A DNA stretch of 64,000 bases from an uncultured Porphyromonadaceae bacterium (GTDB taxonomy: Bacteria > Bacteroidota > Bacteroidia > Bacteroidales > Muribaculaceae), in NCBI GenBank assembly GCA_947176755.1, contig CAMWRW010000003.1, positions 1 to 64,000 of the forward strand, given 5' to 3'. The notes beneath the pieces were generated by a model that saw only the letters and a list, made by a program, of their open reading frames with translations, ran no database searches and was not told the origin of the DNA. This document shows, piece by piece, positions 2,836 to 42,737 of the stretch. The translations under genes were made by a program, and so were the position numbers. The first letter of the stretch is position 1. Each line of letters begins with the position of its first letter.

Positions 2836-2961
2836 GATTATCAGTTTTCGGAGCGACCTCACGCCGACACGTTGGTAGCGGTCGGGCCGGGATGTCGACT
2901 CTCTAAGGGGAATAATAGATTGATTAGTGCAAAAATAATAGATTTGCGGGATTCATCAGCG

Positions 2962-3036
2962 CAAAAAAAAATTGATTGTCATCCCGACAACCAATCTTGC
3001 GTTAACCTTAAAATCTAATACCATGAAAAACTCGAT
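2962..3036 (-). ncRNA. Copy A of a dispersed short RNA transcription unit (conserved core + intrinsic terminator)
   Basis: Minus strand: TATATTTGC-ATCGA-GTTTTTCATGGTATTAGATTTTAAGGTTAACGCAA-GATTGGTTGTC-GGGAT-GACAATCAAT-TTTTTTTT. Nearly identical to copy B, related to C and D. Confidence 0.8.
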
Positions 3037-3045
3037 GCAAATATA
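3037..3045 (-). promoter_or_regulatory. -7 box TATATTTGC of RNA copy A
   Basis: Matches the TAnnTTTG Bacteroidetes -7 consensus; fixed spacing to RNA core. Confidence 0.7.
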
Positions 3046-3231
3046 GAGAATATATTTTAGAACAATGTTGTAAAACATATAAATCCTTTTAAATTTTAAC
3101 TTTTATTATGATTTAAGTTATATTTGACCGACTGCTTTAACATTTATTTTATACCTAAAACAAATTTACGATTCTATTTTGAAAATTCCGTCACGTTAGA
3201 TATTTTTGCAACGAAATAGAGCATTCGCTTT

Positions 3232-19195: not shown

Positions 19196-19246
19196 CAAGT
19201 TGTCGATTGCGACCCTTCCGGTGTGAATCACGCTTTGTAACAGGCA

Positions 19247-19320
19247 TAAAAAAAATTGATTGTCATCCCGACAACCAATCTTGCGTTAACCTTAAAATCT
19301 AATACCATGAAAAACTCAAT
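19247..19320 (-). ncRNA. Copy B of the dispersed short RNA transcription unit
   Basis: Minus strand: TAACTTTGC-ATTGA-GTTTTTCATGGTATTAGATTTTAAGGTTAACGCAA-GATTGGTTGTC-GGGAT-GACAATCAAT-TTTTTTTT. Confidence 0.8.
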
Positions 19321-19329
19321 GCAAAGTTA
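19321..19329 (-). promoter_or_regulatory. -7 box TAACTTTGC of RNA copy B
   Basis: Matches TAnnTTTG. Confidence 0.7.
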
Positions 19330-19564
19330 GTTATATTTTTTAAAACAATGTTATAAAACATATAAAATTCTTCGATTATTAACATTTATTAAACATAAAT
19401 TAGATGATTCGCACAATAATAAATCTATGTTAACAATAATAAGCTGTATTATTAAATTCTGTTAATAATTTGCACAGTAAGAAGAATCAGCATACCTTTG
19501 CACCGTTGCATTCCACTACAACACTACAACAATAACCGAATCACCACTTAAACCTATATTGACA

Positions 19565-40710: not shown

Positions 40711-40785
40711 AATGTGTTTTTCATAGAATTAAATTAAGATTAAGGTTTCAGTCTATCTCTTTGGGAAAAGAGATAGACTTTTTTA
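40711..40785 (+). ncRNA. Copy C of the dispersed short RNA transcription unit
   Basis: AATGT-GTTTTTCATAGAATTAAATTAAGATTAAGGTTTC-AGTCTATCTCTTT-GGGA-AAAGAGATAGACT-TTTTT; 13-bp perfect stem with GGGA loop. Confidence 0.75.
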
Positions 40786-40994
40786 TTATCCATATATCAC
40801 AAATTATCAACAGATTGATTAAGGTCCAAGCAAGCACCTCCATCCTTTTCCCGACCTTTGAAAAAGAAATTGACAGGGCAATCAAACCAAAAAAGTTTCA
40901 GCAATGTTATAAGGATAAACCGGCGGGTCGGCCGAGGCTGAGCCGCGGAATTGAATCAAAAATATCAAAACTATAACTATAAAAACACACTATC

Positions 40995-42663: not shown

Positions 42664-42737
42664 GACGTGTTTTTCATGGTATTAGATTTAAGGTTAGAGG
42701 ATTAATTGTCGGGAGACAATTAATCTTTTTATTTTTA
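42664..42737 (+). ncRNA. Copy D of the dispersed short RNA transcription unit
   Basis: GACGT-GTTTTTCATGGTATTAGATTTAAGGTTAGAG-GATTAATTGTC-GGGA-GACAATTAATC-TTTTTATTTTT; 11-bp perfect stem with GGGA loop. Confidence 0.8.

Follow-up and report, generated by a model that had tools for sequence, protein, structure and literature searches.

The inverted repeat ATGTT-N4-AACAT immediately upstream of two FopS small RNA (sRNA) genes, FopS-A and FopS-B, in the window (the 64,000-nucleotide stretch of a Muribaculaceae genome analyzed here) is very probably the operator of a Crp-family global regulator of the BT4338/Cur ortholog group; it has been kept with the A/B-class promoter, and through it Cur would activate both genes on carbon shortage. 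This arrangement suggests that carbon supply directly controls FopS-A and FopS-B. BT4338, later named Cur, is a Crp-family regulator of carbohydrate use with the consensus site wwwTATGTTnTAnAACATAwww (PMC3878776, PMC6989115), while FopS in Bacteroides thetaiotaomicron is a family of 14 sRNAs that prevents SusC-type importers from being translated (PMC11697453). The B. thetaiotaomicron copies have σABfr promoters, and the FopS study considered an additional transcriptional regulator possible, leaving it unidentified (PMC11697453). FopS is not named as a Cur target in that paper or in the searchable Cur papers (most subscription papers and all supplements lay outside the search), and the link thus appears to be unreported in the literature covered.

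FopS copies and promoter architecture in the window

A covariance model found four FopS matches, A to D, and no others in the 2.27-Mb host genome. All four are identified as FopS sRNAs; A, B, and C reach the Rfam RF04319 gathering score of 56, and D falls short of it. The seed is retained in the window copies, and the RNA, seed, terminator, and σABfr-type -7 box are all like those of B. thetaiotaomicron FopS. The features are as follows (positions in the window; distances from the RNA 5' end).

2962–3033, minus strand: FopS-A sRNA (RF04319, 76.7 bits)
3038–3045, minus strand: -7 box of FopS-A, TATATTTG
3062–3064, minus strand: TTG adjoining operator A, separated from the -7 box by 16 nt
3065–3078, minus strand: operator A, perfect dyad ATGTT-TTAC-AACAT, -45 to -32; predicted Cur/BT4338-type Crp site
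3096–3101, minus strand: distal AGTTAA of copy A, at -68, a single repeat copy
19246–19317, minus strand: FopS-B sRNA (RF04319, 76.2 bits)
19322–19329, minus strand: -7 box of FopS-B, TAACTTTG
19345–19347, minus strand: TTG adjoining operator B, -33-like but poorly spaced (separated from the -7 box by 15 nt)
19348–19361, minus strand: operator B, perfect dyad ATGTT-TTAT-AACAT (sRNA strand), -44 to -31; predicted Cur/BT4338-type Crp site
19379–19392, minus strand: tandem repeat TTAA-N6-TTAA of copy B, at -75/-65, conserved in the class
40714–40788, plus strand: FopS-D-like sRNA (41.9 bits, short of the gathering score); operator absent
42667–42733, plus strand: FopS-C sRNA (67.8 bits); operator absent; syntenic across the genus

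The dyad occupies exactly the positions that the initial annotation had assigned to it (3065–3078 and 19348–19361) and, as that annotation also held, is missing from C and D. Exact ATGTT-N4-AACAT occurs twice in the window, compared with a mean of 0.06 in dinucleotide shuffles, of which 0 of 100 reached two. The similarity between A and B does end at the terminator T-tract as described, but its upstream limit had been placed too close (about 3083 and 19365) and the duplicated unit, put at about 120 bp, had been made too small: the BLASTN alignment spans 154 columns at 88% identity (2957–3108 against 19241–19391), extending past 19365 because a further conserved element, the TTAA repeat, lies upstream of the dyad. 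Within this block the RNA parts hardly differ, while the stretch from the dyad to the -7 box has diverged.

A σABfr promoter consists of a TAnnTTTG -7 box and a TTTG -33 element about 19–21 nt upstream. Those FopS promoters that have no site agree with this spacing rule. The promoters of A and B are weak by this measure: their -7 box is a good fit to TAnnTTTG, but TTG lies only 15–16 nt upstream, the dyad occupying the usual place of the -33 element.

Match to the BT4338/Cur site

Copies B (TATGTTTTATAACAT) and A (TATGTTTTACAACAT) fit the BT4338/Cur palindrome, the sole deviation being a T in place of the outermost right-hand A. Copy B, which reads TTTTATATGTTTTATAACATTGTT, is nearly identical, including the TTGTT junction, to the experimentally tested fusA2 site (TATGTTACATAACATTGTT, CCTTATGTTACATAACATTGTT; PMC6989115). 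In other families, the fusA2-like junction AACATTGTT was found at two unrelated genes. Zur, Fur, FNR, and Rex boxes were considered and rejected, as their arm spacing or half-site differs, whereas the BT4338 consensus fits exactly.

The genome-wide motif search proposed in the initial annotation located 13 occurrences of ATGTTNTANARCAT, of which 12 are perfect palindromes and essentially all are intergenic; the reversed-pattern control gave 0. Co-regulation of A and B only, as originally suggested, is true of the four sRNAs as a set but not of the genome, which has about a dozen other intergenic sites. Perfect or one-mismatch palindromes stand upstream of the EF-G2/fusA2 ortholog, malic enzyme, glycogen debranching enzyme, 2-oxoacid oxidoreductase, and a SusC-type receptor, and the alanine dehydrogenase gene is likewise preceded by a site. 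The EF-G2/fusA2 ortholog scores 723 bits to PDB 7uvp (which, though titled TetQ, we take to be Bacteroides EF-G2), against 280 for ordinary EF-G. Both fusA2 and alanine dehydrogenase were named as direct BT4338 targets in a ChIP study (PMC6989115). The palindrome, its central TA, the TTGTT junction of the fusA2 site, and the presence of the site at orthologs of known targets are shared with the Bacteroides system; what differs is that the genes predicted to be controlled here are FopS sRNA genes, in a Muribaculaceae. The distance from site to -7 box is 33–34 nt at the fusA2 and alanine dehydrogenase orthologs, 18–19 nt at FopS-A and FopS-B, and 7–8 nt at bipA and an MscS-type gene; in this respect FopS departs from the two known targets, which counts against the proposed mechanism, above all its sign.

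The Crp-family factor

The window's genome encodes one HTH_Crp_2 protein, of 265 aa, whose best PDB match is 2gau, the CrpPg of Porphyromonas gingivalis, and which we infer to be a member of the BT4338 (Cur) ortholog group. Three further proteins have a cNMP-binding domain, none with an HTH_Crp_2 match. In other Bacteroidales families, 18 of 30 orthologs of the HTH_Crp_2 protein have the dyad, with no more than one mismatch, in the 120 bp upstream of the gene, or 17 of 30 under a slightly different start-codon rule; 19 permuted-arm patterns gave 0.63 on average and never more than 3, and changing the arm spacing gave 0 or 1. For Crp paralogs encoded in those genomes, the dyad was found upstream in 0 of 20. 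Autoregulation of BT4338 had been predicted earlier (PMC3878776); the region upstream of the Crp gene in the window's own genome has no clear site, a point against the proposal.

Conservation among congeners

Aligned on the RNA 5' end, the FopS copies of 60 congeneric genomes form three classes that differ in RNA sequence. The dyad, with one mismatch or none, was present in 53 of 72 distinct A/B-class promoters (RNA 5' GAGUUUUUCAUGG), starting at -46 to -43, and in none of the 18 C-class or nine D-class promoters (0/27). Allowing two mismatches raised the A/B-class count to 64 of 72, all starting at -46 to -43; the other eight have three or more mismatches, which counts against the operator reading. 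Almost no variation is seen within the class in the left arm (ATGTT), the central TA, or the right-arm CA; at one right-arm position both A and G occur. The sequence from the dyad to the -7 box is variable, which points to selection on the site. The initial annotation had named loss of the repeat from orthologous copies as evidence against its proposal; the repeat is kept, and this conservation, together with the exact match to the BT4338/Cur consensus, supports its view of the dyad as an operator.

The gene neighborhood of C- and D-type copies is conserved (rubrerythrin, RecO, queuosine synthesis), and the loci of A/B-type copies differ between species. Among the fetched loci, the genes flanking B are common to one congener only, and those flanking A are shared with no other A/B-class copy. 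Ten neighboring genes sampled at further loci have ordinary metabolic or housekeeping roles, and none is a transposase. In congeners, A/B-class copies also occur in tandem (loci L207, L054, L052, L051, L023, and L026), with up to four in 1.5 kb; at L207 (2527–3982) every such copy has the operator. In a few class-I copies (L031, L059, and L060) there is instead an unrelated upstream region ending ACAGATACAAC or GTGTACAAC, and a G+C-rich inverted repeat replaces the FopS promoter and operator. C-class promoters (L074–L093) show other recurrent upstream motifs, such as TTATCATAATGATAT and AGTGCTATTAATTAATGCATTTTATATC, and may have their own regulators.

FopS promoters in other lineages

A site with at most one mismatch was present in 20 of 46 FopS promoters from several other Bacteroidales families and another genus of the same family (control mean 0.42), perfect sites among them. 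It starts either at -38 to -34, inside the core promoter (center about -28), or at -68/-67 (center about -61), and not at -45. As the site occurs in FopS promoters of other families, the link between regulator and FopS is older than the family. Judged from these positions, the geometry of that link has changed between lineages, and the sign of Cur-FopS control has possibly changed as well. Tentatively, and with more doubt than conviction, we suggest that Crp/Cur has targeted FopS promoters since early in the history of the Bacteroidales. The operator would then have shifted between lineages in steps of about one or two helical turns (centers about -61, -38, and -28), and in the window's genus a self-contained unit, from the distal repeat through operator, promoter, and RNA to the terminator, would keep re-emerging at new loci. 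If this is true, one starvation signal could turn FopS on in one family and off in another.

A scan of 84,980 species for the operator together with FopS returned 105 stretches, titled as MAGs of Muribaculaceae, Porphyromonadaceae, Bacteroidales, or 'Bacteroides sp.'; because the range of gaps that it allowed did not cover the -35 arrangement, it is no proof of lineage restriction. No FopS was found on viral contigs.

In B. thetaiotaomicron FopS has RbpB as an antagonist, whereas an RRM_1 (RbpB-type) protein was found neither in the window's genome nor in 11 congeners nor in another genus of the family, all of which have FopS. Of the ten FopS-bearing genomes from other families that were tested, seven have such a protein. 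If FopS works in the window's genome, no RbpB-type antagonist that the RRM_1 model can detect opposes it.

Proposed mechanism and alternatives

In the mechanism that we infer from sequence for this species, which comprises Cur binding, its sign, the carbon-limitation signal, and the susC targets, a shortage of preferred carbon would lead dimeric Cur to bind TATGTT-nTAn-A(A/G)CAT, centered at about -38. Bound Cur would replace the poorly spaced -33 contact and recruit RNA polymerase in a class II-like activation, and the FopS-A and FopS-B so made would pair, through their shared 5' seed, with the translation starts of susC-type mRNAs and block unneeded importers, as in B. thetaiotaomicron. C and D, having no site, would answer other inputs. 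At class II CRP-dependent promoters of Escherichia coli the site is centered at -41.5; in both systems a Crp dimer site abuts or overlaps a weak upstream promoter element, although here the center is near -38 and the sigma factor is a different one. Unlike E. coli CRP, BT4338 does not use cAMP as its signal (PMC6989115). A precedent is MasB, an sRNA that is directly activated by Cur (PMC10994844); direct Cur control of an sRNA gene is likewise predicted for FopS, but MasB is an unrelated, single-copy RNA with a different target, and FopS is a paralogous family.

We consider activation the probable sign, though with appreciable doubt. Cur might instead bind as a repressor, the dyad at -45 to -31 occluding the -33 contact of RNA polymerase so that A and B are off under carbon limitation. 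This is a possibility of some substance, if the less favored one: the dyad overlaps the -33 region, the site at -38 to -34 in FopS promoters of other families lies within the core promoter in a repressor-like position (as it does upstream of most Crp orthologs), and BT4338 both activates and represses in B. thetaiotaomicron (PMC6989115). Against it, the -33 element is badly spaced, as at activator-dependent promoters, and TTGTT follows the operator directly, as in the strongly activated fusA2 site.

That another dimeric regulator with the same half-site, rather than the Crp ortholog, uses the dyad is improbable. The genome does hold three further cNMP-binding-domain proteins, yet they lack the HTH_Crp_2 match, the Cur consensus is known and orthologs of its targets carry the site, and the dyad precedes genes of the Crp ortholog group and not those of the paralogs. 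Still harder to credit is that the dyad is a functionless by-product of a recent A/B duplication. The near-identity of the two RNAs and the single block of similarity would fit such an origin; the dyad, however, has persisted in scores of copies whose loci in different species are unrelated, even as its spacer to the -7 box diverges, and in other families it stands at other positions. Pure hitch-hiking with the duplication was rejected on this conservation at non-syntenic loci.

A direct Cur input would join a transcriptional master regulator and an sRNA brake on SusC importers in gut Bacteroidales, and paralogs with the same seed would be retained for differing input, not output. It would also address a gap, transcriptional control of these sRNAs having been left open by the FopS study (PMC11697453).

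The distal TTAA repeat

TTAA-N6-TTAA at -75/-65, with a period of 10 bp, is perfect in 88 of 123 A/B-class promoters, and other tested periods gave at most 13; the 123 include loci selected for the Cur site, and the dyad frequencies above were taken from the unbiased 72. The repeat is also enriched in FopS promoters of other families (7/31 versus 0–2). As a lead to its function, it resembles the direct-repeat sites of OmpR/PhoB-type response regulators. In FopS promoters across the Bacteroidales (L001–L093 and L287–L334), a second TTAA pair sometimes occurs about 41 bp further up.
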